Source: Gemmata palustris (GTDB taxonomy: Bacteria > Planctomycetota > Planctomycetia > Gemmatales > Gemmataceae). Taken from it: DNA of 64,000 bases. Shown piece after piece: positions 8,064 to 61,461 of this stretch; positions within the stretch are counted from its first letter, which is position 1; each line of letters begins with the position of its first letter. The DNA lies in assembly GCF_017939745.1 (NCBI RefSeq), contig NZ_JAGKQQ010000001.1, forward strand, positions 8,013,299 through 8,077,298. The letters run 5' to 3'. The position numbers and the translations under genes are program-made. Under the pieces are notes generated by a model. The model had not been told where the DNA came from and did not search any database. It was given only the letters and a program-made list of their open reading frames with translations.

Positions 8064-11000
8064 TCAACCCAATTCGCTCTCGCGCAGGAGCGCGGCCATG
8101 TCGCGGTGGATGCGCCGGCGGATGAGGAACTCGTCCTCGTCGAGCCACGCGCGGACCGTGGCGCCGAGGGTGAACTCGTCCGTTACGACCGAGCGCACCA
8201 CGGTGTCGATGAGCCGCAGCGGTTGCAGTGTGAAGTAGCAGTTCGTGGACCCGCCCACGGTGACGCGGTCGAGGCGCTGGAACAGTTCTTCGAGGCGCCC
8301 CAGCGCGATACCCGCCGGCGCGAACCCGAGGGCTTCCGCGTATGCCAGTGCCACCGCGGTGCGCTCCTGTCGGTCGTTCGGCGCGGCCAGGAACAGGTGC
8401 TCGCGGGCCGCGTTCAGGACGCGGTTGCCGGCCTCCTCGTCGCCCGCCGCGAACCACCCGATCGCCAACCCGACCCGTTCCGCCGTCACCGGTTGCGTTC
8501 CCCACTCCGCGCCGGCCGGGTCCAAGACGCGCATGAGCGCGTCCGCGTCCGCCACGAGCCCGAACTTGCGCGCGGCGCGGAACGCTCGGGGGGCCGCGGC
8601 AGTCGCGGCAGCGAGCAAGTGACCGGTCGCGGCGCCGCGCGCCAGATGGCGGAGCAGGGTACCGGTGGTTGCGGCCGGCGCGACCGCGAACGCGGTATCG
8701 AGCATCGACTTCTGGTAGCGCGCCACGGTCGCGGCGCGTTCGTCCTCGCGCCAGCGGCCCGTGCGCACCCACGCTTCCATCCAGTCGAGTGCCGTTGGGA
8801 CGAGCGCGAGGAGCGGCTCGAGTACGGGCGGCTCCAGGTGCGCAGCGACTTCCAACAGCGCGAAGACGATGCGCGGAACGGTCGCGGTGGTCGGTTCCGC
8901 GCTCGCCACCGCGAGCAGTGCCCGGGCCTCGTCGTTGAGTTGGGCCGCGCTGGTGCGCGAACCGAATACTGATAGGCGCTCCCCGAGCCGGTCGGTTCCC
9001 CAGAGCGTTTTCAGCGCCAGCGCGGACCCGCGCACCCCGCCGAGGGGTTCCAGAATGCGGCAGTGCTCGCGCAGTCGATCGACGGCGTAGCGCGCGAGTT
9101 CGGGGAGCCGTTCCAGGCGCTCGTGCAGTTCCGGCGGGAGCCCCGACTTGGGTGCGCCGCCCTCGTGGGCGTCCTTGATCCGGTGAAGGAACAGGTCGCC
9201 GAGTAGTGCGTGTGTGGCCGGGTCCGCTTGGGGGCCGCTCGCACGGGTGAGGGCCTTTCGTGCGCGTGCGGACCAGTCCCGCGCGCGGGCGCGTTCGCCC
9301 AGCGCGCCGAGGCCCCAGGCGAGAAGGAACTGCGCGTACACCGCGGTCGCGTCCGTTTCGGCTTCCAGCCCGGTCCACGCGAACCGGCCCCCGCCCGTGT
9401 GTCGCTGCACCCAGGCCAGCACCGGCTCCTTGACGCGCGTGAGCCACTCGCGGGCCGTCTTGAACCGTTCCGCGCTGGCCGGTCCGCGAAAGCGCAAGAA
9501 CGAGGGTTCGTCCAGGTCCAAGCCGGGGCCGCGATCGTGTAACCGGGCCACGAGCCGGTCGCGCCAGCGCGCGAGACCGAGTACGTCGCCGTCGCACGAT
9601 CGCGCCACCGCGATCCGGGCCAACCACGCGCCGCGAACGGGAATGTCGTCGAAGTGCTGGTCCAGCACCGCGAGCACGCGGGGAAGGGCCGCGACGAAGT
9701 CCGGCGGGGGAGTCGGTTGGAACCCGGCGCTCGCCGCCAGCGCCGCGACCACGCGCCCGGTGCCGGGGCGCCCCGGTTCGGCGAGCCACCGGTCCAGTCC
9801 GACCGTGCGGTCGCCGCGCTTCACCGCGTGGCACTCCGATTCCGCCCACTGCTCGAGCCACTCCGCGGGCGGCGCGGCGCACTCCCAGGTCGCGTTCACC
9901 CAGCACACGGCCGCGTCGAGCGCCTGCCCGGTCGCGCCGTACACGCCGGCGAGTTCGGCCCAGCGCGCGGCCCGCTCGTCCGGGCCGAGTTTCGGGAAGT
10001 CCGTGAGTAACCGGCTCTCCAGGTCGTGGCGCCGGGCCGCGCGGTCGTGCCCGTGCAACAGCGCGTCCGCGGAACTGAGCTTCCGCTCGACGCGCTCGCC
10101 CTGCGGTTCGGTGGGGCGCGCCTTCCGATCGTCCCGGCGCGCGGCCCTCGGGTCGGGCGCCGGCGCCCCCGCTTCGGCCGACTCGTGTGCGCTCCGCCCG
10201 CGCAACCACTTCACCATGAGGCCGACCGATTTCGCGACCCAACTCGGCTCCTCTTCGGCGGGCAGGGCGGGGTACTCGTCCGTTGACTCTTCGACTTCCG
10301 GCTCCGGTTCGGCGACCGGTTCGACCCGGAGCGCGAACTTCGAGAACGGGAACGGGTCCGCGGGGATTCGCAGTGCCGCGAGCGCCGTACCCGCGGGCGC
10401 CGCGTACTCGATCTGTTCGCTCACCGGGCGGAAGGCCGCGACCGCGACCGCGTGGACCGCGAACTCGTTGCGCCCGTGCGGTTCGAGCCAGGTAAGGTGC
10501 TCGGCGGCGAGCCGCAACTCGCGCACGAGTTCCGTGGTGCGGACCCGGGGGCGCAGCGCGTAGCCGGTGGGTACGAACAGCGCCGGCACCCGCGGGTCCG
10601 CACCGAACCCGTCAGCGGACACGGGCAGCGCCGTGGCGTCGTCTTCGGGCGTGCGCCGAACGAGCACGCGCGTTTCTGTTCCGAGTTGAGTCGTCGCAAC
10701 ATGGAACCGGCGGAGCAGGCGCTCGTCGGCGTTGCGGCAGAACTCGCGGAAGCCCTCTTGCTCTGGCGGTGCGAGTACCCAGAGCGATTCGCTCACGGGC
10801 GCGTTGCAGCGCGAGAGCCGGAAGCGGACCTCGACCCGCGCGGCGGATTTCGGTGCCGCGGTGGGGCACGTTTTGGTGGTGAGAGCGAATTCGTCATCGA
10901 CGGGGAGCGGTACGGGCGCTGCGACCGCGGTCGCGCCGCGCTCGGGATCGCACAGCAGCACGCACCCGGCCGGAACCGTGAGGTGCCCCGCGAGCGGGTG

Positions 11001-11504
11001 CTCCCACCCCCGCGCGGTCCACACGTCGGGTGACTGTTGTCGGTACGCGCGGACCGGCGCGCCCGGCTCCTCGGCCCAGAGCAGAACGGCGAGCGGCGGC
11101 GCGGGAACTGTGACCCACGCGCGGCCCGTGTGCGGCTCGGGGAGCAAGTGAACACCGGTCGGCCCCGCGCGCAGGCGCCGAAGGCGCCCGACGAACGCCG
11201 CGAGTAGCTTGTCCGGCACATCGAACAGGACCGGCCCGGGACCGGGAGCGGCTTTACGGAGCGGGAGCAGTTCGGCCCAGGAGCGGGTCGTTTGTGTGGG
11301 CGCGCCGGGGGTGCCGAGCGCGATCACTCCGAGGCGCCCGAGCGCGGTGATCGTTTCGCGGGGTAAAAGTTCGTCCAGTTCGATCCAGATGTGGGGCGCG
11401 TCCACCCGGGCCCGCACCGGCGCTGACGTGAGCGCGACCGGCACGAGCCCGCTGGCGAGCGCGAGCCGGAGGGCGTCCAGGTTCGGGAAGAACAGTGCGG
11501 GCAT
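8064..11504 (-). CDS. Giant FtsH-operon protein, 1146 aa (paralogue of the next gene)
   Basis: Large protein of unknown function, last gene of the FtsH-type operon. It is paralogous to the 1166-residue protein upstream: both begin with a near-identical block (FFPNLDALRLALASGLVP here) and end alike (LGATVRAWLDEDEFLIRRRI here). The shared middle block runs from LLTDFPKLGPDERAARWAEL to CWVNATWE. The N-terminal third is rich in beta-type sequence and prolines, and the C-terminal half is helical and Arg/Ala-rich. A low-complexity acidic linker (VEPVAEPEPEVEESTDEYPA) and an Arg/Lys stretch lie near 420-480. No signal peptide, membrane helix or catalytic motif is visible. The start at 11504 aligns with the paralogue; an upstream start at 11558 falls in an inverted repeat. 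Confidence 0.75.
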   Translation of the reverse strand: MPALFFPNLDALRLALASGLVPVALTSAPVRARVDAPHIWIELDELLPRETITALGRLGVIALGTPGAPTQTTRSWAELLPLRKAAPGPGPVLFDVPDKLLAAFVGRLRRLRAGPTGVHLLPEPHTGRAWVTVPAPPLAVLLWAEEPGAPVRAYRQQSPDVWTARGWEHPLAGHLTVPAGCVLLCDPERGATAVAAPVPLPVDDEFALTTKTCPTAAPKSAARVEVRFRLSRCNAPVSESLWVLAPPEQEGFREFCRNADERLLRRFHVATTQLGTETRVLVRRTPEDDATALPVSADGFGADPRVPALFVPTGYALRPRVRTTELVRELRLAAEHLTWLEPHGRNEFAVHAVAVAAFRPVSEQIEYAAPAGTALAALRIPADPFPFSKFALRVEPVAEPEPEVEESTDEYPALPAEEEPSWVAKSVGLMVKWLRGRSAHESAEAGAPAPDPRAARRDDRKARPTEPQGERVERKLSSADALLHGHDRAARRHDLESRLLTDFPKLGPDERAARWAELAGVYGATGQALDAAVCWVNATWECAAPPAEWLEQWAESECHAVKRGDRTVGLDRWLAEPGRPGTGRVVAALAASAGFQPTPPPDFVAALPRVLAVLDQHFDDIPVRGAWLARIAVARSCDGDVLGLARWRDRLVARLHDRGPGLDLDEPSFLRFRGPASAERFKTAREWLTRVKEPVLAWVQRHTGGGRFAWTGLEAETDATAVYAQFLLAWGLGALGERARARDWSARARKALTRASGPQADPATHALLGDLFLHRIKDAHEGGAPKSGLPPELHERLERLPELARYAVDRLREHCRILEPLGGVRGSALALKTLWGTDRLGERLSVFGSRTSAAQLNDEARALLAVASAEPTTATVPRIVFALLEVAAHLEPPVLEPLLALVPTALDWMEAWVRTGRWREDERAATVARYQKSMLDTAFAVAPAATTGTLLRHLARGAATGHLLAAATAAAPRAFRAARKFGLVADADALMRVLDPAGAEWGTQPVTAERVGLAIGWFAAGDEEAGNRVLNAAREHLFLAAPNDRQERTAVALAYAEALGFAPAGIALGRLEELFQRLDRVTVGGSTNCYFTLQPLRLIDTVVRSVVTDEFTLGATVRAWLDEDEFLIRRRIHRDMAALLRESELG

Positions 11505-11530
11505 GTCCGAAGTGTAGTGCCCGCAGACGG

Positions 11531-11632
11531 GAAATCCGAAATTCAAAGTACGAAACACGAAAGAAGGCCGGTCGAATCCGTGCGATTGACGGTAACTTCT
11601 TTCGGATTTCGCGATTGGGATTTCGAGTTTCT
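11531..11632. repeat. Degenerate inverted repeat between the two giant genes
   Basis: Arms of about 36 nt (GAAATCCGAAATTCAAAGTA... and its imperfect complement ending GGATTTCGCGATTGGGATTT) fill the 140-bp gap between the 1166- and 1146-residue genes. Composition is like family D at 1022-1104, but pairing is imperfect. Confidence 0.6.
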
Positions 11633-11644
11633 AGCGGTTCGCCG

Positions 11645-14600
11645 TCACAGGTTGCTCTTCAGCAGGTTCCGCTTCATGTCCGCGTGGATGCGGCGGCGGA
11701 CCAGGTACTCGTCGTCGTCGAGCCACCGGCGCCCGGACGGGCCGAGGGCCGCGTCGTCGTTCACCACGGCCCGGATCACGTCCTCCACGAGGTTCAGGTG
11801 GAACCGCGAGTAGTATTGCGCGGTCGTCCACGTGTTCGTGATCTTCGCCGGCGACATCCGCTTGAACAACTCGACCATCCGCACCAGTGCGCTCTCGGCC
11901 TGCCCCTGGCCCAGCGCGGTGACATAGGCCCGGGCCAGTTCGGTGTAGTCCTTGGGCTGGAGCGAGACCGCGTTCGAGTTGAGCAACTCGTTCCGCGCCG
12001 CTTCCAGGATCGGGTTCGCCCGGTCCTGGCGGCCGAAATGGAGCCACCCGCCGGCCAGGTTGAGGAGCGTCTGGAGCACTGCGGCCCACGTTTCCGGCTT
12101 GGCCTGGTGCTTCTTCCTCAGTTCCTCGGTGGACGCGCCGCCCAGAACCTCGCTGTGGAGCTTCGTCAGGAACCGGTCGATCTCGTTCGACAGCCCGAGC
12201 TTCTTGAGGCTCCGCATACACTGGCCCGCGACCACGTTAATGAGCTTGAACCGCATGTCCTGCGGCTTCGTGTGGACGAGCGCGGTGAAGTCGTCCACGA
12301 GTTTCTTCACAATGTCTTCGCGGGCGAAGTGCCCGGCCTGGAACATCGCGCGTTCGAGCAGCTCACCTTGTTTTTTGGGCATGTCGGGCGATTCGTTCGC
12401 CCCGCCGGTGCCCTGGAGCGCGGCCGGTACCAGCGCGAGCAGTTCGACGGTGAACGCTTCACTGACGCGCGCCGCGAGCGGGAGCGCTTCGTGCAGAACG
12501 TGGAACTGCACTTCCTTGATCGGCTTCCCGGTCACGCCGTCCTTGTACAGTTTGCGAACGCGCTCCGCGAGCTTGTTCGGGTCGCGGATCGTGTGCAATT
12601 CGGCCAGCGCCTTCTTCGTGTCGTCACTGTGCTTGGTCCAGTCGGCATACGGGTCCGGTTTCTCGTGCGGCTCCATGATGCGGGACTGCTCGCGCATCCG
12701 ATCGACCACGTACTTCGCCAGCTTGTACGGGTTGTTCACCGGGCCGGAGCCGAGCTTCTTGGTGATCTCTTCCAGATCGTCGAGCACCTCGGGGGCCATT
12801 TGTCCCGTGTGCGGTTTGCCGGCCAGAACCTGTTCGATGCGGTACCGGAACGCCTTGAACAAGAAGTTGCGGACGATGGCCCCCGTAACGGCTTGTTCGG
12901 ACTGCGGGTTGGTGCTGACCGGGACCGGCCCCTCCATCACCTTGCGCGCGTCGTCGAGGAGCTTCTTTGCCTGCGTCGTCTCGCCGAGCTTCGCCACCGC
13001 GAACGCGAACAGCAGGTCCACGAGCGGGTGGTTCGCCTTGAGGTGCTCGTTCTTCTGCACCGCGGCGGAGTCGTCGATCCACTTGCGGATCGTGGTGTGC
13101 AGCTCCATCGACTTGTCGCGCACCACGCGCATGCGCTCGGAGTCCTTCACCCCGGCCACGCGGAGGAAGTACGGCAGGTCGCGCTCGGCCTGGAGCCCCT
13201 GCTCGAGCAGCCGCTTCAGGAGCCGGTCGCGGACCCGGGCGAGCCCCAGCACGTCCGCACCGGAGAGCTGCGCGAGGCGGAAGCCCGCGAGCCACACGGC
13301 CCGGACCGGGAGCGAACTGTCGTGCGTCTCGAGGTAGTTCTGGACCGCGGGGAGCCGGGCGAGGAGCCACGGCGGGACCGGCTGTTGCGACGCGAGCCAC
13401 AGGAACGCCGACACCACCGCGCGCGACTCGGCCAGCCCCGACCCCGTGTGGTGCAGGAGCTTGTCGAACTCGTCGGCCTTGATGGTCGCCCCGGCGCTCG
13501 GGAGCTCGCTCCGCACCCACCCCGCGAGCCACGCCGGGGGCAGCGGGTCCGCGTCCCACAGGGCGTCGAGCCAACAAATGGCCGCGTCCATCGGCTCTTT
13601 GGCGCCCGAATAGGCGGCCGCGAGTTCGGGCCAAATCGCCTGGCGCTCGGGGCCATCAAGCGGGCCTTCGAGCGCGAGGAACTGAGTTTCCAGTTCCGTG
13701 GCCTTGAGCTTCCACTCGTTCGGCTTCTTCACCTCTTCAACGGGCGGCAGGAACTCCGCGGACGTTGTGGGCTTACCGCCCGCGGGCTTGCCCTTCGCGC
13801 CGGCTTTGGGTGCGGTGCCGACGCCCTTCGGCGCCTTCACGTCGTCGTCCTTCTCCTTCGGGTCTTTGTCGCCCTTGTCCGGCTTGTTCTTCGGGCCGCC
13901 CACGTCCTTGCACACGAAGTGATCGAAGTCGAACCGCGTCGCCTCGATCCACGCGGCGAGCGCCTGCTGTTCCGCCTCGATGACGTAATCGACCCAGTCC
14001 TCGATCGAGCGGAACGCGGCGTCCGGGATGAACTCCGGCGTGAACCCGCTCTTGTCGTCGGGGTAGAGCCACACGACCTGATCGGCGTCGTCGGCGAGGA
14101 GCTTGCGCACCGCGTCGCGCCGGAGCGTGGGGTGGAGCCGCTTGCCGACCGGGAGGAACAGGTTCGGCAGCTTCCAGAACGGCTTGAACGCGAGCGCGTG
14201 GTCGAGCGCGAGGACCGGGGGCGTGAGCTTCGACGGGCGCACGCGGAGCACGACCGTGCGCGTGCCCTGTGCGTCGGTCGCGACCGCGAACATGAGGCGC
14301 TGGAGCAAGCGGTCGTCGGAGTCGCGCACGAGCGTATCGAGCTGCTCGACGGCGTTCTCCCGCAGCACCCACAGCTCCGCCGTGTCGCTCGCGTTCCCGC
14401 CGGTGAGCTTCAGCGGGACGGACATCTTCTTGGGCGCTTTGGTCTCGGTCCACCCCACCGGCGCCGTCGGCAGTTTGAACTGCATGATGTCGTAAACGTC
14501 CTGGAACGGGGCCTCGTCCAGGTAGAGCCACTCGCGCGGTTCGCGGATCAGAAGCAGTTGCTTATCGGACACGCGGAGTTGCTGTGCGAGCGGGAGCGTG

Positions 14601-15145
14601 TGCCCGACTTCGACCCACACCCGCGGCGCGCGCTCCAGGTAGGCGCGGATCGTGCCCGCGGTGCCGGACGAGCTACTGTCGACCGCGCGGAGCAGGGTGT
14701 AGTACGGCGGGCCGATGACGCGGAGCAACACCCGCTTGCTCTCGCCGTCGCCGTCCGTCGCGAACCACCGGAACCCCTGCCGGTCGTTGCCCAGGCGCAG
14801 CATTTCGGAGACGAGCGTGGGCAGGTCTTCCGCCTTCTCCAGCTCGAAGAGCACGGGGGCCTGGTTCGAGACGGTGGGCGCGATCGGGTCGCGCGTGACC
14901 GGGAGCAACTGCGGCCAGCAGGTGATCTCTTGCGGATTATCGGAGGCGTGGCGCTTCGATCCCTTCACGCCGATGCGGTCCAGGTTCTTGGTGACCGTGC
15001 GCGTGAGGTTCGCGGTCGATTCGACGTAGATCTTGCCCTGGTCGTCGAAGCTCACGGCCGCGGGCGCGAGGGTGACGTCCGCGGGCACGATGCCGCTCGT
15101 GAGGGCGAGGCGAACCGTGTCGAGATCGGGGAACAGCAGGATCAT
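11645..15145 (-). CDS. Giant FtsH-operon protein, 1166 aa
   Basis: Large protein of unknown function encoded between the small-peptide genes and its paralogue. It starts MILLFPDLDTVRLALTSGIV and ends LGPSGRRWLDDDEYLVRRRI followed by HADMKRNLLKSNL, matching its neighbour at both ends; the shared central block runs from GPLDGPERQAIWPEL to CWLDALWD. The first ~400 residues look beta-rich and contain two similar modules, one starting TLPLAQQLRVSDKQLL. A Lys/Asp/Pro low-complexity linker (DKGDKDPKEKDDDVKAPKG) follows at about 450-500, then a long helical C-terminal half. No membrane helix, protease or nucleotide-binding motif was found. The ATG at 15145 was chosen by alignment with the paralogue; upstream in-frame codons to 15289 lie across an inverted repeat. 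Probably a scaffold or target-recognition subunit (inference). Confidence 0.75.
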   Translation of the reverse strand: MILLFPDLDTVRLALTSGIVPADVTLAPAAVSFDDQGKIYVESTANLTRTVTKNLDRIGVKGSKRHASDNPQEITCWPQLLPVTRDPIAPTVSNQAPVLFELEKAEDLPTLVSEMLRLGNDRQGFRWFATDGDGESKRVLLRVIGPPYYTLLRAVDSSSSGTAGTIRAYLERAPRVWVEVGHTLPLAQQLRVSDKQLLLIREPREWLYLDEAPFQDVYDIMQFKLPTAPVGWTETKAPKKMSVPLKLTGGNASDTAELWVLRENAVEQLDTLVRDSDDRLLQRLMFAVATDAQGTRTVVLRVRPSKLTPPVLALDHALAFKPFWKLPNLFLPVGKRLHPTLRRDAVRKLLADDADQVVWLYPDDKSGFTPEFIPDAAFRSIEDWVDYVIEAEQQALAAWIEATRFDFDHFVCKDVGGPKNKPDKGDKDPKEKDDDVKAPKGVGTAPKAGAKGKPAGGKPTTSAEFLPPVEEVKKPNEWKLKATELETQFLALEGPLDGPERQAIWPELAAAYSGAKEPMDAAICWLDALWDADPLPPAWLAGWVRSELPSAGATIKADEFDKLLHHTGSGLAESRAVVSAFLWLASQQPVPPWLLARLPAVQNYLETHDSSLPVRAVWLAGFRLAQLSGADVLGLARVRDRLLKRLLEQGLQAERDLPYFLRVAGVKDSERMRVVRDKSMELHTTIRKWIDDSAAVQKNEHLKANHPLVDLLFAFAVAKLGETTQAKKLLDDARKVMEGPVPVSTNPQSEQAVTGAIVRNFLFKAFRYRIEQVLAGKPHTGQMAPEVLDDLEEITKKLGSGPVNNPYKLAKYVVDRMREQSRIMEPHEKPDPYADWTKHSDDTKKALAELHTIRDPNKLAERVRKLYKDGVTGKPIKEVQFHVLHEALPLAARVSEAFTVELLALVPAALQGTGGANESPDMPKKQGELLERAMFQAGHFAREDIVKKLVDDFTALVHTKPQDMRFKLINVVAGQCMRSLKKLGLSNEIDRFLTKLHSEVLGGASTEELRKKHQAKPETWAAVLQTLLNLAGGWLHFGRQDRANPILEAARNELLNSNAVSLQPKDYTELARAYVTALGQGQAESALVRMVELFKRMSPAKITNTWTTAQYYSRFHLNLVEDVIRAVVNDDAALGPSGRRWLDDDEYLVRRRIHADMKRNLLKSNL

Positions 15146-15251
15146 GGGTTCAACTGCGAAAAGGGCTGTGCTTGAGTTTGAGTGCGAGTACGTTTGGCGA
15201 TAGCCGGTCGGGTGTTCGAGCTCCACCAGCGAGCAATTGCAGCAGGTATTT

Positions 15252-15362
15252 GCGAACGGCGCGGCGTAAGCCCGCCGGTTAAGCATCAACCCACATTTGC
15301 TTTTCCACCAAGTCGTTCACCGGATTTGGTAGCTCTACCGGCGGGCTTACGCCGCCGTTCGC
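15252..15362. repeat. Inverted repeat (family E) in the operon gap
   Basis: Left arm at 15252-15279 contains GGCGTAAGCCCGCCGGT; right arm at 15337-15362 contains its exact complement. The flanks GCGAACGGC and GCCGTTCGC also pair. It lies between the 88-residue peptide gene and the 1166-residue gene, so it would be in the operon transcript. Confidence 0.88.
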
Positions 15363-15402
15363 CCGGCTTGCTCTTCACCACGGGACTCCCCGGCGGAGCG
15401 AA

Positions 15403-15669
15403 CTACGAGCCCTTGTTACCGGCCTTTTGTTTTTCCGGCTCGTTGGGCTGGCTCACCGGGCCGGCCGGTTGCGCTTCGCTCTCGCGCTCGACGATGATCT
15501 CGCCCATGTCTTCGGGCTTGATGCCCTTGCCGATGAGCTTCTCAACCAGCGCGCGGTGCATCTGCTCGTGCTCGATTGGCAGCGCGTCCGGGTCGGAGTC
15601 GAGCTTGATGATGATGTTCTGCTTGCCGGTGTTCGGGTCGCGGCGGAGCATGATAATCATTTCGGCCAT
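15403..15669 (-). CDS. FtsH-operon small peptide, 88 aa
   Basis: Small acidic protein of unknown function, paralogous to the 60-residue peptide just upstream. The core runs MIIMLRRDPNTGKQNIIIKL, then IEHEQMHRALVEKLIGKGI, then KPEDMGEIIVERES; an extra hydrophilic tail rich in Pro, Gln and Lys follows residue 68. The pattern is a short beta hairpin, a helix and a final strand. HEQMH within the helix is formally a HExxH motif, and it is kept in the sister peptide. It is too small to be a conventional zinc protease, so metal binding is only a possibility. Placement next to the FtsH-like gene suggests a substrate, adaptor or tag. Confidence 0.75.
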   Translation of the reverse strand: MAEMIIMLRRDPNTGKQNIIIKLDSDPDALPIEHEQMHRALVEKLIGKGIKPEDMGEIIVERESEAQPAGPVSQPNEPEKQKAGNKGS

Positions 15670-15702
15670 CGAAACGCCTTTGTGTTGAGTGCTCGGTTTC
15701 GG

Positions 15703-15885
15703 TCAGGCGCTCTCGCGCTCGATGATGATCTCGCCCATGTCCTCGGGCTTAACTCCCTTGTCGATGAGTTTCTCGACAAGGGTGCGGTGCATCTGCTCGT
15801 GCTCAATCGGCGTCGCAGGGAACTCGACTACGATGATTAAATCGATCTTCCCCGTAGTCGGATTTCGCCGCTCGCGGATCTCCAT
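15703..15885 (-). CDS. FtsH-operon small peptide, 60 aa
   Basis: Sixty-residue protein starting MEIRERRNPTTGKIDLIIVV, closely related to the 88-residue downstream peptide (IEHEQMHRTLVEKLIDKG and KPEDMGEIIIERES are nearly identical). Two strands, one helix and a last strand are likely. The start is at 15885, behind an eight-G run (GGTGGGGGGGG) that serves as an unusually long Shine-Dalgarno-like tract and could slip in replication. The gene begins 48 bp after the FtsH-like stop, and the next peptide starts 34 bp after this one ends. Function unknown. Confidence 0.75.
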   Translation of the reverse strand: MEIRERRNPTTGKIDLIIVVEFPATPIEHEQMHRTLVEKLIDKGVKPEDMGEIIIERESA

Positions 15886-15932
15886 TTTGCCCCCCCCACC
15901 AGCCGGCTCACACCGGCCGTTCGCCACGAGCG

Positions 15933-18152
15933 TTAGTCGTCTTTCTTCTTCGCGGGCTTCTTCTCGCCGCTCGCTTCGGTCGTGGTCCCGGCGCCGGTGC
16001 CGAGCTTCACTTCCGGGCCGGGCGCGCCCACGTCCTTCGGGTACTTCGCCCGCAACTCTTCGATGATTTCCTTCGTCCGGTCGCCCTCGATCGTCTTCTT
16101 CTCCGTCAGCTCGTCGCGGATCTTCAGGAGGTCCGCCTTGTGCTTGGTGAGGATCGCCGCGGCGCGGGCTTGGGCTTCGACGATGAGCGTGTTCACCTGT
16201 CGGTCGATCGCTTCGGCCATTGAGCCGGAGAGCACCTGCCGGTCGCCCTTGTGGTCGCGGAACGACCGCAGCGGGGCCGCGAGGTTCGACATCCCGCACA
16301 CCTCGACGATGTACTCCGCGAACATCGACGCCCGCGACAGGTCCGAGTTCGCTGCACCCATCCCGCTGGCGCCCGTGGACACGTCGCCGACGAGCAACCG
16401 CTCCGCCTCGATCCCGCCGTACAGCACCGTGATCTGGTCGAGCATCTCGTTGCGGCTCATACCGATCCGGTTCTTCTCGTGCTTGAACTGCGTGAAGAAC
16501 GGCGCCCACGGCATGTCGCTCTGGATCGTCACCTTCTCGGGCTGCTGGTGGTGCTCGCAGAAGATGGACACGAGGAAGTGCCCGGCCTCGTGTGTGGCCA
16601 CGACGGGTAGATCCTTCTCGTGAACCTCCACCTTCTCATCGAACTCGGTGATCGCTTTTTCGATCAGTTTGGGCGTCGTTTCGCCGGTAATGTTTTCGCG
16701 CATCCGCAGGCGCGCCACCGATCGGCACAGGGCGTTCAGGTGGTCGCCGCTGAACGCGGTGCCGGTCGGCGTCATGTACCGGTTGCCGGTGCGGTTGATC
16801 GCGTACTCCATCGCCTCTTCGGTGAACTGGAGCTTCATCTTCTTGTTGTAGATCTCGAAGATCGCGCGGCGGTCGTCGTCGTCCGGGTACGGGATGTGGA
16901 TGTGGAACTCGAACCGGCCGGGGCGGAGCAGGGCGGGGTCGAGCGACTCCACGAAGTTGGTCGTGCCCACGATGAACACGAGTTCGTCCTTGTGGAACCC
17001 GTCCATTTCGGTGAGCAGTTGGTTCACCATCGAGTGCTCGACGCCGCTGCCGGTGTACGTCCCGCGTGCGGTGGCGAACGAATCGATTTCGTCGAACACG
17101 ATGATCGACGGCGCCGATTGCCGGGCCTTGTGGAAGATCTGGCGCAGGTTCTCTTCCGATTCGCCGACCCACTTCGACTTCAGTTCCGGGCCGGACACGA
17201 TGGTGATCGCGGCGCCGATGCTCGCGGCGATGGCCTTCGCGAAGTAGGTCTTACCGGTACCCGGTGGCCCCCAGAAGATCATGCCGCGCGGAATGAGCTC
17301 TTCGAGGCGCGAGACCTCTTCGGGGTCCGTGGCGCGGTCGCGCTTCGAGAGCGTGTCGAGGATTTCGCTCTTGAGCTTCGCCTTCACCTTCACGTAGCCG
17401 CCGATGTCCTTGTCCAGATCGACGGACGGGATCTCCATGTTCCCGCTGAGCGTCGATTGCCGCACCTGCGCGTAGGCGCGCTTCGGGTCGGCGGGGTAGT
17501 CCTCGCCCTCGAGCGTGGAGAGCAGCCGGCGCAGGCGCACCGCGTTCACGCCGGAGACGTACTTGTAGAGCTGCCACGGCGAGAAGTCCTTGCCGAACTT
17601 GCGGCTCTCCTTCTGCGTGATGAGGTGGCGCAACCGGTTCCGCGAGGTGCCGAGGATGCTCAGCCAGTGCGGGAACAGGTTCTCGATCACCTTCGGCAGC
17701 GAGAACGACGGGTCTTTGAACCCGAGCCACACGAGTTCGGGGTTCTCGTACAGGAGCGGAATCACCTCGCGCGCTTCGCTCGTGAGCCCGCCCTGGCTGG
17801 TGGTGAGCAGGTCCAGGTGCGGAAGCACAACGACTCGGCGCTCGGTGGCGCCGCGGACGGCGTCGCGCAGTTGCCCGATCATGGTCCCGATGAGGCCCAT
17901 TGGCATCGCGCCCTGTTGCGGGTCGCGCTGCCGGCCGTCGAGGTAGATGCACTGGAGCTTGGCCTGGCGCAGCCGGTCACGCACATTCATGAACAGGTAC
18001 GGCGCGAGTTCCTTGTCGCACTCGATGAGCGTGGGCAGCCCGCGGATGAGCTTGCTGGCCACCTCCGCGAGTTCCTGGCTGTACGCTGCCTCGACTGCTT
18101 CGCCCGGCGTGAGCGAGGTGGGCAGGTCTTTTTCGGTGATCGTGATGCTCAT
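15933..18152 (-). CDS. Soluble FtsH-like AAA+ zinc metalloprotease
   Basis: ATP-dependent protease-type protein of 739 residues. The AAA+ module has Walker A GPPGTGKT at 295-302, Walker B IIVFDEID at 350-357, and a second region of homology (GTTNFVESLDPALLRPGRF) at 396-414 with the arginine-finger segment. An M41-type peptidase follows: HEAGH at 521-525 (zinc His521, His525, catalytic Glu522) and the third-ligand region TGASGMGAANSDL with Asp604. Unlike housekeeping FtsH it has no N-terminal membrane helices. Instead the first ~240 residues look like a degenerate ATPase-like domain, with VVVLPHLDLL at 107-116 resembling a Walker B strand but no Walker A. The C-terminus ends in a Lys/Asp tail. 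Likely cytoplasmic and the core enzyme of this operon. Confidence 0.88.
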   Translation of the reverse strand: MSITITEKDLPTSLTPGEAVEAAYSQELAEVASKLIRGLPTLIECDKELAPYLFMNVRDRLRQAKLQCIYLDGRQRDPQQGAMPMGLIGTMIGQLRDAVRGATERRVVVLPHLDLLTTSQGGLTSEAREVIPLLYENPELVWLGFKDPSFSLPKVIENLFPHWLSILGTSRNRLRHLITQKESRKFGKDFSPWQLYKYVSGVNAVRLRRLLSTLEGEDYPADPKRAYAQVRQSTLSGNMEIPSVDLDKDIGGYVKVKAKLKSEILDTLSKRDRATDPEEVSRLEELIPRGMIFWGPPGTGKTYFAKAIAASIGAAITIVSGPELKSKWVGESEENLRQIFHKARQSAPSIIVFDEIDSFATARGTYTGSGVEHSMVNQLLTEMDGFHKDELVFIVGTTNFVESLDPALLRPGRFEFHIHIPYPDDDDRRAIFEIYNKKMKLQFTEEAMEYAINRTGNRYMTPTGTAFSGDHLNALCRSVARLRMRENITGETTPKLIEKAITEFDEKVEVHEKDLPVVATHEAGHFLVSIFCEHHQQPEKVTIQSDMPWAPFFTQFKHEKNRIGMSRNEMLDQITVLYGGIEAERLLVGDVSTGASGMGAANSDLSRASMFAEYIVEVCGMSNLAAPLRSFRDHKGDRQVLSGSMAEAIDRQVNTLIVEAQARAAAILTKHKADLLKIRDELTEKKTIEGDRTKEIIEELRAKYPKDVGAPGPEVKLGTGAGTTTEASGEKKPAKKKDD

Positions 18153-18187
18153 GTGTCGCGGGGGTCAGGATTCGGAGTCTTAAAGGT

Positions 18188-18299
18188 CACAGGGCTTCCG
18201 CCCTGTGCTACAACAGCCGGCCCTCCGGGCGGAAGACAGCGCGGCTTTCTCTTCGCCCCGGAGGGGCCGGCTTCCGTAGCACAGGGCGGAAGCCCTGTG
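18188..18299. repeat. Inverted repeat, family C copy 1
   Basis: Arms CACAGGGCTTCCGCCCTGTG (with CTAC) and the complementary GTAGCACAGGGCGG plus AAGCCCTGTG flank an inner GCCGGCCCTCCGGG/CCCCGGAGGGGCCGGC pairing. Each arm is itself partly palindromic. It lies in the gap between the 190-residue gene and the FtsH-like gene. A related copy occurs at 61342-61461. Confidence 0.9.
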
Positions 18300-18315
18300 G
18301 CACCGACCGTAAGGT

Positions 18316-18888
18316 TCACACTTCGACCTTGATCGTGAGCGAACCGCTCTCGGGGTCTTCGCTGATTTCCTTCACGGTGCCCATCTGTTGGGCCTTCTGC
18401 TTGAGCGCGTCGCGGGTCACCTGGTTGACCACTTCGGAGATTTCGGGCTGGAGCTCCTGGAGGTGCTTTTCCAGCGCCTCGGTCGCCTTGCCCTGGAGCC
18501 GCGACTGCTCCTGGTCGAACTTCTTGTCGAGGTCTTGCTTGAGCTGGTCCTTGACCTTCTCGCGGAGGTTCTTTTCGTTCGGCCCGACGTCGTTGAAGCC
18601 GGTGGCCTCGCGCTTCACTTCCTGGTTGATCGTTTCTTCGGTCTCGGCCTTGACCGAAACCTCACCGGTGCAGGGGTCGATCTTCACCGTCAGCTCGCCG
18701 TCCTTGCGGGTCATCGTGCCGTCGTCTTGTTCTTCAAACCCGCGCTTCTTGAGCTCCTCTTTGAGGAGCGTGGCCATGTCTTCGGGCGGCAGGATTTCGA
18801 GGATCTCGAGTTCCGTGCAGATCTCGTCCCCGGCCTTGAGATTGCGGGTCTCGGATTCTTTCACGGTAATGCGGTACGCGCGGCTCAT
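18316..18888 (-). CDS. FtsH-operon charged coiled protein, 190 aa
   Basis: Unrecognised 190-residue soluble protein, strongly charged. Residues about 1-85 appear to form a compact alpha/beta unit (SRAYRITVKESETRNLKAG, then EILEILPPEDMATLLKEEL, GFEEQDDG, LTVKIDPCTGEVSV). Residues about 85-175 are Glu/Lys/Gln-rich and probably a long coiled coil (KVKDQLKQDLDKKFDQEQS). A last strand SGSLTIKVEV ends the protein. It starts at 18888 behind AGGAG; a longer frame to 18921 enters an inverted repeat. It lies directly upstream of the FtsH-like gene, so it may be an adaptor or regulator (inference). Confidence 0.72.
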   Translation of the reverse strand: MSRAYRITVKESETRNLKAGDEICTELEILEILPPEDMATLLKEELKKRGFEEQDDGTMTRKDGELTVKIDPCTGEVSVKAETEETINQEVKREATGFNDVGPNEKNLREKVKDQLKQDLDKKFDQEQSRLQGKATEALEKHLQELQPEISEVVNQVTRDALKQKAQQMGTVKEISEDPESGSLTIKVEV

Positions 18889-18898
18889 GGTTACTCCT

Positions 18899-18958
18899 GT
18901 AGGGTGGGTCGTGCCCACCATTCGGGTCGGTGCCGGTGGTGGACGCTGCCCACCCTAC
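18899..18958. repeat. Inverted repeat directly upstream of a ribosome site
   Basis: Arms GTAGGGTGGGTCGTGCCCAC at 18899-18918 (continuing CA) and TGGTGGACGCTGCCCACCCT (continuing AC) at 18937-18958 pair in the transcript just 5' of the AGGAG of the 190-residue gene. The hairpin could affect initiation or processing there. Confidence 0.8.
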
Positions 18959-18992
18959 GAAAGCGTCGTTCGGAACGGATATCGGCTCTCGA

Positions 18993-20171
18993 TTAGCCGG
19001 GGCTACCTTCGGGGTTTTCGCCGCCCGAGGCTGTGCCGCCCGCTCCGGGCTGTCCGGCCACGGGACCGCGGAGCGGTTCGAGCATTTCGACCGCGGCGCG
19101 AGCGCGGGCGGCGACGCGATCGCCGTTGGCCGCCTCCCAGTCCGCCTTCCACATCTGACTGGCCTGGTAGTCGTCGTCAAAATACCCGACGAACCGGGCA
19201 CGCTCCTGCCAGGTTTCCAGAACTTCCATCTGGCGCGGGAGTGCGAGCGCGGCACGCTGCGTCTCCAGGCGGTCGGCGAGGCGCTGCGGGCCGCTCCCCT
19301 GTAACCCGCCCGTCCAGAACACCGGCGTTAAATCAGACTGAAGCACCTGTGCATTGGTTCGCAAGACGAACCGCGCGAGGTCCGTTCGGCGCGCGACTTC
19401 CGCTGCTTGGACGAACCCCCGCAGGGCCGCAAATTCGGCTTGTCCCTGGTGCCGCATCTTCTTCCAGTCGCCGATCTGTCCTTTGTCGCGTTCCGATTTC
19501 ACCCAGCGGTGCGTGAGGTGCGTTTGCATGCACTCCAGAAGCACCGCGCTCAGTCCCGTAAACATCGGGGCGAAATCGGGCGGTTGCGGCTTGGTGCTCT
19601 CCGGGTCGGCCGCGTCTTGCGGGGCAATGAGCCAGCAAAACGGGTTCCGCGCGAACGTGTCCTTGCGCCGCAGGACCGTGAGCACGTCCGGGTCCGACCG
19701 CATCGCGTCGAACGCCAGCGCGAAGAACAACTCGTCGGTTGGTGTGAGCGCTTTCGGTGCCGCGTCCCACATCAGTTTCGTTTCATGGACCTTTTCGGCC
19801 GTCAGCCAGAACAGGAAATCGAACACCGGGCGCGAGAACTGGAGCGTCCGCTCGTCGAGCGGGATGCGGTCCCAGACGCGCCCGGCGACGGGGGCGTGGG
19901 TCCGCAAGTATTTGTCGTTCCGCCAACCGCCGGCGCGCGTCAGGAACAGCACCAGAGCTTTGCCCAGCGTGTCCTTCACCAGATCGACCGCGCCGCCGCT
20001 GATGCAGTCCGGTTTGGTGGTCGCGGTGCGAACGAGTTGCAGACCCTGATCGGCCGGGAAATGCCCGACGAGGAACCGCAGGATGCGGAGCAGGTTGAAC
20101 TCGAACTTCGACACCTGCCGCGGCCCGTCCGGTTCCGGCGGTCGAGACGGTGGGGGCGCAGCGCGCGTCAT
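18993..20171 (-). CDS. FtsH-operon protein of unknown function, 392 aa
   Basis: Unrecognised, mostly helical soluble protein of 392 residues. Visible blocks are KFEFNLLRILRFLVGHFPAD, CISGGAVDLVKDTLGKALVL, and a conserved-looking RPVFDFLFWLTAEKVHETKL. Arg-rich helices occupy the C-terminal half, with a disordered Pro/Gly tail (GGTASGGENPEGSPG) at the end. No transmembrane segment or enzyme motif is seen. Its ATG overlaps the stop of the radical-SAM gene (ATGA), indicating tight coupling with that gene. It may be the radical-SAM enzyme's partner or substrate (inference). Confidence 0.75.
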   Translation of the reverse strand: MTRAAPPPSRPPEPDGPRQVSKFEFNLLRILRFLVGHFPADQGLQLVRTATTKPDCISGGAVDLVKDTLGKALVLFLTRAGGWRNDKYLRTHAPVAGRVWDRIPLDERTLQFSRPVFDFLFWLTAEKVHETKLMWDAAPKALTPTDELFFALAFDAMRSDPDVLTVLRRKDTFARNPFCWLIAPQDAADPESTKPQPPDFAPMFTGLSAVLLECMQTHLTHRWVKSERDKGQIGDWKKMRHQGQAEFAALRGFVQAAEVARRTDLARFVLRTNAQVLQSDLTPVFWTGGLQGSGPQRLADRLETQRAALALPRQMEVLETWQERARFVGYFDDDYQASQMWKADWEAANGDRVAARARAAVEMLEPLRGPVAGQPGAGGTASGGENPEGSPG

Positions 20172-20884
20172 TTGGCGTCGGTCTCGTGCGTGGTGCTTTT
20201 CGTCTCAGGGGCGATCGGGAGCGGGACCGGTTTTTTGCGTCTCCAACCCTTCCACAAGCCTACAGCATTCGCGGCCGGAAAGCCATTCACGCTGATCTCG
20301 CGCCCGACGACGCGGATCTCCAGTGTGTTCTTCGTCCGCCACTGTTCGTCGTAGGAGTACCGCGGCGTCAAGAAGTGGATGCGCTGGTTGCGGGAACCGA
20401 TCCACCGGCGCTCCGTATCGGGCTCTTCGCGGAGATACGGGCCGTCCACGAGAATGTCCGTCAGGCCGATCAACTCCACGATGTCCGGATCGGCCTTTTC
20501 CCGCAATTCTTCGATGGTGAATCCGCTAAAAATCATGACGGACAATCCGAGCTCGCGAGAGGCTTGTGCGAGTGCGAGAGCCGCGGGCGCGTGAGCGGTG
20601 GGTTCGCCGCCGAGCAGCGTGATTCCCTCAATGCCGCTTTCGTCGCGTGCTTTTTGAATCGACGCGGTCATTTCACGGAGCGTTTTCGTTGCGCCACCCT
20701 TAAACGACAGGAACTCCGGGTTGCAGCACCCGGGGCAACGCAGCGGGCACCCCTGGAACCACAGCGCGAACCGCTTGCCCGGTCCTTCGGCTTCGGTGCA
20801 GGGTACCACTTGGGCGATCTGCATCGTCAGGTCTTCCGCGGTGCCGGTCATCGCGTGTTGGTCGCTCCAAAAGGGTTGCGGCAT
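20168..20884 (-). CDS. Radical SAM activating-enzyme-like protein
   Basis: Radical S-adenosylmethionine enzyme of the NrdG/PflA activase type. CPLRCPGC supplies the CxxxCxxC [4Fe-4S] ligands (C46, C50, C53 counted from the first ATG), and LLGGEPTAHA is the GGE SAM-binding motif. The core is about 215 residues, small like other activases. An internal ATG at 20824 (MQIAQVVPCTEAEGPG) is the more typical activase N-terminus; the outer ATG at 20884 overlaps the rtcA stop as TAATG. No glycyl-radical enzyme or anaerobic ribonucleotide reductase is adjacent, so the target is probably encoded in this operon. Cytoplasmic and oxygen-sensitive. Confidence 0.85.
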   Translation of the reverse strand: MPQPFWSDQHAMTGTAEDLTMQIAQVVPCTEAEGPGKRFALWFQGCPLRCPGCCNPEFLSFKGGATKTLREMTASIQKARDESGIEGITLLGGEPTAHAPAALALAQASRELGLSVMIFSGFTIEELREKADPDIVELIGLTDILVDGPYLREEPDTERRWIGSRNQRIHFLTPRYSYDEQWRTKNTLEIRVVGREISVNGFPAANAVGLWKGWRRKKPVPLPIAPETKSTTHETDAK

Positions 20885-21930
20885 TATACCCGCTGGGCGA
20901 TGCGCACAACCCCTGATTTGCGTTCGCCATCCTCAATCTGAATGGTACGATCCACGAACTTCCGCACGGTTTCCACGTTGGTTGTCAGGTGCCGCGTGAT
21001 TTCCGAGGTGCGGTACTCACTGGCGTCGTCACTGAACGCGAGCGGGAGCAAGAGTTGGTCGGCGGAGTGCGGATCGACGGGGCACTTTGCGTCGCGGAAC
21101 GGGACGGCTTCGTGCATCGCGTCGTCGGCGACACTTTCCGACGGCTTGCCGCGCTCGCCGAGCCCGAAGAACAGCGCCGGCACTGGCGCCTGCCGGAAGA
21201 TCACCGCCGCGACGCTACCCGGGTTCGCGGCCTCCCACTCTTCGACCGGGATGTGCGACTCGACGCCCTCCGCTTTCAACTGCACACTCAACCGACGCGC
21301 CTGGCGCTTACCCACGGATTCCGGTAACCCCGCGAACGCGCTGAACCCGCCCGCGGTGGTCAGTTCCGGGCACGTCAGGAGCGAGAGCCCCTTCACACGG
21401 GAACACGGATGGATCACCGCGCGAATCTCGCCGCCGCCACGCGGATAGAAGCCGGGGCGGACCATCTCCAATTCGACCTGAACGCCCATTCGCACGAGGT
21501 ACGCGGCCCACGTGGTTTCAAGGAAGTGGTAGCACGGAGCGTGCTGGTTGTGCGTGCCGCCGGTGACGGTCACGGTGCTCGGCTTGTCGCCGCGCAGCGC
21601 GAGCGGGAGGTACACCGTGTGGAGCACGAGCGCCGTAGCGCCCGCGGTGCCGATCGAGAACGTGTAGTCACCGCTTTTGACCGGCCCCGGCTCGAAGTAC
21701 AGCACGGACGACCCGTTCGAGGCGCCCTTGTACACCGCGCCGCTGATCGTGCCCGCCGCGCGCACGCACATCAGGTGCTGCGGTTGCAACCCCGGCTTCG
21801 AGCGGTTGGCCCGGATGTTCACCAGCTTGAACGGCCGCCCGGTGAGGATCGAAAGCGCGAGCGCCGACCGCAGGATCTGCCCCCCGCCTTCGCCTTCCGA
21901 GCCGTCAAGTTCGATCATGCCATCACTCAT
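20884..21930 (-). CDS. rtcA: RNA 3'-terminal phosphate cyclase
   Basis: Converts RNA 3'-phosphate ends to 2',3'-cyclic phosphates using ATP, in RNA repair or processing. From the ATG at 21930 it is 348 residues, close to the 338 of E. coli RtcA. MIELDGSEGEGGGQILRSAL is the family N-terminal signature, with RANRSKPGLQPQHL, GGTHNQHAP and GFYPRGGGEI following. HLTTNVETVRKFV near the C-terminus ends the conserved region. RtcB is not adjacent. The stop overlaps the radical-SAM start by one base (TAATG), so rtcA may be the first gene of the long operon. A longer frame to 22107 crosses the divergent promoter region and is not preferred. Confidence 0.92.
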   Translation of the reverse strand: MSDGMIELDGSEGEGGGQILRSALALSILTGRPFKLVNIRANRSKPGLQPQHLMCVRAAGTISGAVYKGASNGSSVLYFEPGPVKSGDYTFSIGTAGATALVLHTVYLPLALRGDKPSTVTVTGGTHNQHAPCYHFLETTWAAYLVRMGVQVELEMVRPGFYPRGGGEIRAVIHPCSRVKGLSLLTCPELTTAGGFSAFAGLPESVGKRQARRLSVQLKAEGVESHIPVEEWEAANPGSVAAVIFRQAPVPALFFGLGERGKPSESVADDAMHEAVPFRDAKCPVDPHSADQLLLPLAFSDDASEYRTSEITRHLTTNVETVRKFVDRTIQIEDGERKSGVVRIAQRV

Positions 21931-61341: not shown

Positions 61342-61461
61342 GCACAGGGCTTCCGCCCGGTGCTACAAACGCCGGCCGCTCCGCGGCGTGAAAGGCGTTG
61401 CAGGTACTTGTTTTCGCCCCGGAGGAGCCGTCTAACGGAGCACCGGGCGGAAGCTCTGTGC
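61342..61461. repeat. Inverted repeat, family C copy 2
   Basis: GCACAGGGCTTCCGCCCGGT then GCTAC on the left; GGAGCACCGGGCGGAAGCTC then TGTGC on the right, with an inner GCCGGCC/GAGCCG pairing. The sequence resembles 18188-18299, but the arms have drifted to CCCGG/CCGGG together. It ends 2 bp before the MFS stop. Confidence 0.85.

Follow-up and report, generated by a model that had tools for sequence, protein, structure and literature searches.

The stretch of DNA described here raises the question of what nine neighbouring genes built around an FtsH-type protease do together, and whether they form a machine complete in itself. The window, by which we mean the whole 64,000-nucleotide stretch analyzed, comes from Gemmata palustris (assembly GCF_017939745.1, contig NZ_JAGKQQ010000001.1, positions 8,013,299 to 8,077,298, forward strand). 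The nine genes occupy positions 8064-21930 on its minus strand, with the RtcA gene first (at 21930) and the gene of fvmX7 protein b last. Sequence comparisons suggest that the locus very probably belongs to the FtsH ternary family. The best explanation overall, with a rough probability of 0.55, is that the operon would supply the proteolytic and adaptor half of a system whose switch half, a MoxR protein and an inactive-type vWA protein, is encoded in trans.

The main text of Kaur et al. (2020; PMC7159879) defines the FtsH ternary class by a MoxR protein, a divergent vWA protein, and an FtsH with two AAA domains of which the first is inactive. It describes these core genes as sharing one neighbourhood, with a MoxR that often carries a GXXXTAKS P-loop, and includes a simpler type, in which the vWA is helical at its N-terminus and a radical-SAM gene is presumed to modify a small peptide; neither the word RtcA nor the word fvmX appears in that main text. 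Six window proteins matched the fvm families that Pfam names FtsH ternary system domains, at 66 to 609 bits: the fvmX6 protein (392 residues; 18993..20171; PF20004, 609 bits), the fvmX5 protein (190 residues; 18316..18888; PF20003, 297 bits), two fvmX3-analogs (60 residues, 15703..15885, PF20002, 66 bits, with HExxH kept in the alignment; and 88 residues, 15403..15669, PF20002, 140 bits), and the fvmX7 proteins a (1166 residues; 11645..15145; PF20005, 461 bits) and b (1146 residues; 8064..11504; PF20005, 326 bits). Because these fvm families are the Pfam FtsH ternary domains, and because the published description agrees, the sequence-only reading was right in pointing to FtsH 'ternary' conflict systems. 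The proteins to which it had assigned no recognisable function were present at the sizes given and are six proteins from named fvm families.

The nine-gene predicted operon is real. The same-strand cluster proposed from the sequence, with an FtsH protease, a radical-SAM enzyme, RtcA, paired peptides, and paired giant proteins, was recovered in full and at the expected sizes. The RtcA and radical-SAM genes overlap by 1 nt and the radical-SAM and fvmX6 genes by 4 nt; from fvmX6 downstream, the gaps are 104, 163, 47, 33, 257, and 140 nt in gene order. This order was shared with many of the 35 Gemmataceae loci compared (from the 37 fvmX6-carrying genomes, leaving aside that of the window and G057, a fragmented one), and it also occurred in records whose titles name Gemmata, Zavarzinella, and Fimbriiglobus. 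Because the order recurs across many family loci and genera, it cannot be attributed to chance; a fortuitous same-strand run, which gaps of up to 257 nt might favour, is refuted by the identical order in many genera and is scarcely credible.

The FtsH-type protease (739 residues; 15933..18152) consists of a degenerate AAA domain, an active AAA domain, and an M41 domain (PF00004, PF01434). The first AAA lacks a GKT P-loop, the second carries GPPGTGKT, and the M41 motif is HEAGH; HExGH was found in 42 of 43 full-length FtsH sequences, the exception (L080) extending to a contig end and scoring about half as high as its nearest relatives. In a 19-residue hydropathy scan the maximum for FtsH was 1.45, and none of the nine proteins exceeded 1.58. 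Because these peaks stay low, the protease is probably soluble, without a predicted membrane segment, as had been suspected. It shares its AAA and M41 protease domains with housekeeping FtsH (TIGR01241), but its score with that model (266.9 bits) falls short of the cut-off (600), and it carries the extra degenerate AAA and has no predicted membrane segment. Its best PDB sequence matches were p97-like and fell in two stretches; it has the tandem AAA of p97/Cdc48, but its degenerate first AAA and terminal M41 fusion set it apart. Elsewhere in the genome, a 194-residue orphan open reading frame (L065:9564-10148; G000:C1 ~6364563-6365147) is similar to this FtsH in its degenerate N-terminal AAA part alone (43% identity, residues 16-162) and had zero Pfam matches.

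MoxR and vWA genes are missing from the operon and from the flanking genes scanned. Pfam models for the two were taken from distant relatives whose cluster runs from fvmX7 to MoxR to vWA; AAA_3 (PF07726) was a poor MoxR probe and was replaced by PF20030. In the window's own genome, the search revealed a MoxR gene (L139:6054-7064, equal to G000:C2 ~314053-315063; PF20030, 210 bits) with the P-loop GPPGTAKS and a vWA gene (L140:6105-7598, equal to G000:C1 ~828104-829597; PF19996, 118 bits; PF19997, 146 bits). The operon lies at C1 ~8021362-8035228 of 8313494, with the vWA gene more than 1 Mb away and MoxR on another contig. The three core genes are therefore at three places on two contigs, not in the one neighbourhood described for the class, which strongly argues that the locus is a dispersed variant that stands apart from standard members. 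The idea of a self-contained machine was not sustained, with two of the three defining components located elsewhere in the genome. GTAKS was present in 23 of 24 MoxR sequences. DxSxS is absent from the own vWA and, overall, from 11 of the 12 full-length vWA sequences, which matches a remark on lost metal ligands in the main text of Kaur et al. (PMC7159879).

Compared with the simple type of FtsH ternary system, the genome thus shares the tandem-AAA FtsH with an inactive first AAA, the radical-SAM gene and small peptide gene, both present in the operon, and, outside the window, the divergent vWA with a helical N-terminus and the MoxR with a TAKS P-loop; the further window proteins belong to Pfam FtsH-ternary families. 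It differs in its unlinked MoxR and vWA, its two fvmX7 proteins and two fvmX3-analogs, and its RtcA beside the radical-SAM gene. The own MoxR also matched the bpMoxR model of the MoxR-vWA-beta-propeller ternary systems, but no propeller was found in the vWA protein and FtsH is present. A search for fvmX2 in the own genome returned zero matches, with the search controls silent too. About 1.4 kb downstream of the own MoxR gene, a 532-residue protein (L139:8416-10014) carries a DKSGSM stretch resembling a vWA metal site; it had zero Pfam matches and no relative in the other MoxR loci compared.

The separation extends through the family. In all 35 family genomes with both genes, fvmX6 and vWA were separated by 30 kb or more or stood on separate contigs, a pattern that fragmented assemblies make weak evidence. 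Five relatives had the two on the same contig, at distances of ~30 kb (G043), 0.22 Mb (G008), 0.50 Mb (G001), 1.1 Mb (G032), and 4.0 Mb (G051). The break points vary, with separate loci of fvmX7-MoxR in G033 (L156), fvmX3-MoxR in G012 (L137), and vWA-MoxR in G013 (L152). Homologues scattered without linkage had been expected to count against a common system; they are scattered in some relatives, yet they co-occur and several of them co-evolve.

Co-occurrence was determined in 61 family genomes from 39 genera, incomplete genomes included. The fvmX6 gene was present in 37 of the 61 genomes and 27 of the 39 genera, as a single copy in nearly all carriers; 37 genomes had the N-terminal vWA domain, one of them (G025) under the curated cut-off. 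Both were found in 35 genomes, fvmX6 only in two (G039 and G045), vWA only in two (G017 and G025), and neither in 22; the corresponding counts were 25/1/2/11 of 39 with one genome per genus and 32/1/2/10 of the 45 genomes with at least 90% completeness. Among the matches listed, a MoxR of 197-220 bits was present in 34 of the 37 fvmX6 genomes, the band having been set after the scores were viewed and leaving out G022, G047, and G059 (180-187 bits). Fisher tests of these co-occurrence counts, which ignore shared descent, gave p = 3e-12, 5e-7, and 4e-7.

Pairwise distances, which are crude, were compared for RpoB (30 genomes), RtcA (36), the radical-SAM enzyme (32), fvmX6 (36), fvmX5 (34), FtsH (27), fvmX3 (21), fvmX7 (19), MoxR (19), and vWA (10). 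For every component compared, the distance rose with that of RpoB (r 0.51-0.81), so inheritance appears largely vertical. Partial correlations were calculated given the RpoB distances, with 17 permutation tests whose p-values are uncorrected; RtcA-fvmX3, RtcA-fvmX7, and FtsH with fvmX6, MoxR, vWA, and fvmX3 carry no permutation p. The partial correlation was 0.78 for fvmX6-MoxR (n=15, p 0.0005), 0.86 for fvmX6-vWA (n=8, p 0.006), 0.66 for fvmX5-MoxR (n=15, p 0.001), 0.72 for fvmX5-vWA (n=8, p 0.02), and 0.54 for the radical-SAM enzyme and fvmX6 (n=22, p 0.0005); fvmX6-fvmX5 and fvmX6-fvmX7 gave 0.60 and 0.59. These values suggest that fvmX6 and fvmX5 co-evolve with MoxR and vWA beyond RpoB within the subsets compared. 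In the open-access literature, FtsH ternary systems have so far been known from gene neighbourhoods only, and no experimental study of any of them was found there. In this one family the core genes lie scattered through the genome, yet they are co-inherited and partly co-evolving; neighbourhood surveys can therefore undercount such systems. Testable component lists are now available for culturable Gemmata.

If the operon is the proteolytic and adaptor half, the MoxR-vWA couple would remodel a scaffold of fvmX5, fvmX6, and fvmX7, and this scaffold would feed or gate FtsH, the soluble protease with tandem AAA domains. The orphan NrdG-like enzyme would place a radical-dependent mark on the small fvmX3 protein, which may be a signal, a substrate, or an effector, and FtsH would degrade fvmX3 or fvmX3-tagged targets; RtcA would add no more than a connection to broken RNA ends. 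Infection or cellular stress may be the trigger, infection being a tentative choice. By sequence, the active-site motifs are intact in FtsH, the radical-SAM enzyme, RtcA, and MoxR. The mechanism as a whole is a tentative proposal, in which we infer the MoxR-vWA remodelling, the gating of the protease, and the radical modification of fvmX3.

Several observations weigh against the division into an operon half and a trans-encoded half. Its support comes from sequence. MoxR of the same score band occurred in 7 of the 24 genomes without fvmX6, and FtsH is missing beside fvmX5 in four loci (L048, L051, L053, and L054). The FtsH partials with fvmX6 (0.06) and MoxR (-0.27) add little beyond RpoB, those of MoxR-vWA and of the radical-SAM enzyme with MoxR are 0.58 (p 0.08) and 0.29 (p 0.07), and that of fvmX3 with the radical-SAM enzyme is only 0.15; fvmX3 as the substrate of this enzyme is a conjecture. 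Sequence profiles of fvmX5 and fvmX6 compared with PDB sequences gave no best E below 0.3.

What the system is for can be read in two ways. It may be a machine for proteostasis or stress, and not for defence, that the Gemmataceae inherit vertically and that acts on one particular complex of the cell, remodelling or removing it, with MoxR-vWA acting as in known assembly chaperones; the odds of this fall just short of even. The rise of all component distances with RpoB agrees with such a role, as do the presence of fvmX6 in most genera, nearly always in single copy, and flanks of metabolic and membrane genes (hemB, MFS transporter) with no defence island. However, 24 of the 61 family genomes, some incomplete, had no fvmX6 match, and in a phylum sample fvmX5 was found, besides the own genome, in only 9 of 391 others, all nine outside the window's family; the system is therefore dispensable. 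Related systems also bear effectors and peptide-processing parts, according to the main text of PMC7159879. The other reading, which that text proposes for the class, is a system for suicide or containment that infection sets off. The FtsH ternary assignment and the arguments of Kaur et al. on multicellular hosts (PMC7159879, main text) point in this direction and make it a serious if unproven candidate, somewhat below even odds, whereas the window holds nothing pointing to infection and inheritance is largely vertical. PADLOC matched the FtsH AAA domain (IetA, 105 bits; TRIP13, 51 bits), and its only other matches were weak: the radical-SAM enzyme with viperin, fvmX5 with LeoB, and MoxR with a CARF-AAA model. 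The possible defence role raised from the sequence was accordingly not substantiated; because inheritance is largely vertical, housekeeping regulation is about as likely as defence.

RtcA bears on a further alternative. This RNA 3'-terminal phosphate cyclase (348 residues; 20884..21930; PF01137, 244 bits) scored 358.7 bits with the equivalog model NF003246 (cut-off 352). Aligned to the E. coli-type RtcA 1qmh, it retains the HxxTN histidine, which we take to be the nucleophile; HxxTN was present in 43 of 44 full-length RtcA sequences, the window's included. A radical-SAM gene lies beside fvmX6 in 27 of the 35 operon loci, and RtcA is directly upstream in 18 of these (19 with the window). In 11 more fvmX6 genomes RtcA is elsewhere, and in four of them (G011, G023, G028, and G044) it again has a radical-SAM neighbour, which brings the RtcA-radical SAM pair to 23 of the 30 checkable genomes with both RtcA and fvmX6. 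This adjacency was found in 0 of 5 checkable RtcA-bearing genomes without fvmX6, a set that excludes L134, cut by a contig end, and G004. In G031, RtcA and MoxR are divergent neighbours (L151:5452-7706), with the fvmX6 operon on a separate contig. RtcA has reportedly been named together with radical SAM and FtsH in a Leptospirillum transcriptome paper.

These neighbourhoods, together with co-occurrence (both, fvmX6 only, RtcA only, and neither in 31/6/7/17 genomes; p 3e-5), speak for RtcA as a working part, the RtcA-radical SAM pair then connecting the protease with broken 3' ends of RNA. Yet 6 of the 37 fvmX6 genomes had no RtcA match, and with one genome per genus the co-occurrence falls to 20/6/5/8 (p 0.03). 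RtcA distances also track RpoB most closely of all components (r 0.81), with partials of 0.05 for fvmX6, -0.18 for fvmX5, -0.31 for MoxR, -0.10 for vWA, 0.23 for the radical-SAM enzyme (p 0.075), and 0.32 for FtsH (p 0.04); the sole RtcB match in the genome is ~4.1 Mb from RtcA by contig coordinates. A low partial is compatible with membership because the FtsH partials with fvmX6 and MoxR are low as well. The neighbourhood of RtcA and the radical-SAM gene thus appears real, and a role of RtcA in the machine is unproven and rather doubtful. Whether RtcA is a member or a mere neighbour had been left open at the outset; its frequent radical-SAM neighbour favours the former and its scant co-evolution the latter. 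A still more specific version, a dispersed machine of regulated proteolysis in which the orphan activase, of the glycyl-radical type, makes a radical-modified, metal-binding 88-residue HExxH signal and RtcA ties firing to broken RNA, is improbable.

The radical-SAM enzyme (238 residues; 20168..20884; PF13353, 113 bits; PF04055, 39 bits) shares family, size, and the CxxxCxxC motif with NrdG and the pyruvate formate-lyase activases; of 52 full-length sequences, 49 carry the motif, and the three that lack it are short gene calls. It differs from NrdG in scoring 97.7 bits with the NrdG model, under the cut-off of 126.1, and NrdD was not found in the window genome by a search that was positive in six control genomes. 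The enzyme therefore resembles an orphan NrdG-like activase.

HExxH, the motif of zincin metallopeptidases, was conserved in 39 of 40 distinct fvmX3 sequences and missing from one second copy of 62 residues. In the 88-residue protein it lies at residues 34-38, inside the predicted helix of a beta-beta-alpha-beta model (mean predicted local distance difference test score, pLDDT, 68); when compared for a zincin fold with a third zinc ligand, this model of modest confidence gave zero matches to solved folds at E <= 0.001, and none of the rows listed reached Z 6. We infer that fvmX3 is the small peptide meant by Kaur et al. An orphan activase that shares its operon with a conserved HExxH microprotein poses a concrete biochemical question. 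A kinship of fvmX3 and fvmX5 was sought by profile comparison and rejected, as nothing convincing was found. In a distant planctomycete, a 99-residue gene directly after the radical-SAM gene (L173:6439-6738) was called fvmX3-like by position and look; it lacks HExxH, had zero Pfam matches, and is outside the 40-sequence count.

The AlphaFold2 model of fvmX7 protein a (mean pLDDT 79) has an alpha/beta part (residues 1-402), a linker, and a C-terminal alpha-solenoid (475-1163), a predicted architecture typical of a scaffold; proteins a and b align at 28% identity. The best PDB matches of its profile were designed helical-repeat proteins and similar (best E 0.0008), and the structure matches were generic solenoids (best Z 12.6, root-mean-square deviation 7.8, 251 aligned), below the meaningful level for helical repeats. 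A vWA domain hidden in this C-terminus was rejected, the model being an alpha-solenoid and the genuine vWA being encoded elsewhere. In the 17 loci compared after fvmX7a, a second fvmX7 followed in seven, MoxR in three, neither in six, and both in L037, where the second fvmX7 is short; there may be a link between the duplication of fvmX7 and the disappearance of MoxR from the operon.

Beyond the family, scanning a genome collection for a short pattern from the fvmX5 profile yielded 45 loci, 44 of them planctomycete-titled. The sole other title, an Archangium metagenome-assembled genome (L117) with fvmX5-FtsH-fvmX3, could reflect transfer or a binning error. The three core genes stand together in one neighbourhood in L100, L113, L172, and L173. 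L172 reads fvmX6-fvmX5-FtsH-fvmX3-fvmX7-MoxR-vWA in one locus, with a weak fvmX6 (21.4 bits against the Pfam cut-off of 27); L100 and L113 each read FtsH-fvmX3-fvmX7-MoxR-vWA, with WD40 before MoxR in L113, and in L173 the cluster likewise reaches MoxR and vWA, with a weak fvmX7 match. The Planctomycetales variants L113 (4675-10004) and L112 place DUF6915 and two small genes between fvmX6 and fvmX5, and upstream L113 has two further possible radical-SAM genes, one at 23 bits, below the cut-off, and one judged by eye. In six of the nine phylum-sample genomes, from another planctomycete family (f24; L169, L170, and L174-L177), a radical-SAM reading frame is next to fvmX5 or overlaps it, and the stretches examined around the two gave no FtsH.

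The flanking genes scanned are of ordinary kinds: one side of the operon encodes a malate/lactate dehydrogenase, DUF2237, a zinc peptidase, DUF1501, the MFS transporter, and DUF1264, and the other a sigma-70 region-4-like protein, hemB, a beta-barrel porin, and two family-less proteins. Rfam gave zero matches within the window, and its promoter and terminator scans scored near chance. The 163-nt gap between fvmX5 and ftsH contains a 112-nt nested inverted repeat (18188-18299). A further pair of the 20-nt palindromic end of this repeat, with 1-2 mismatches, lies near 61.4 kb (61343-61460), whereas shuffled sequences averaged 0.01 matches.

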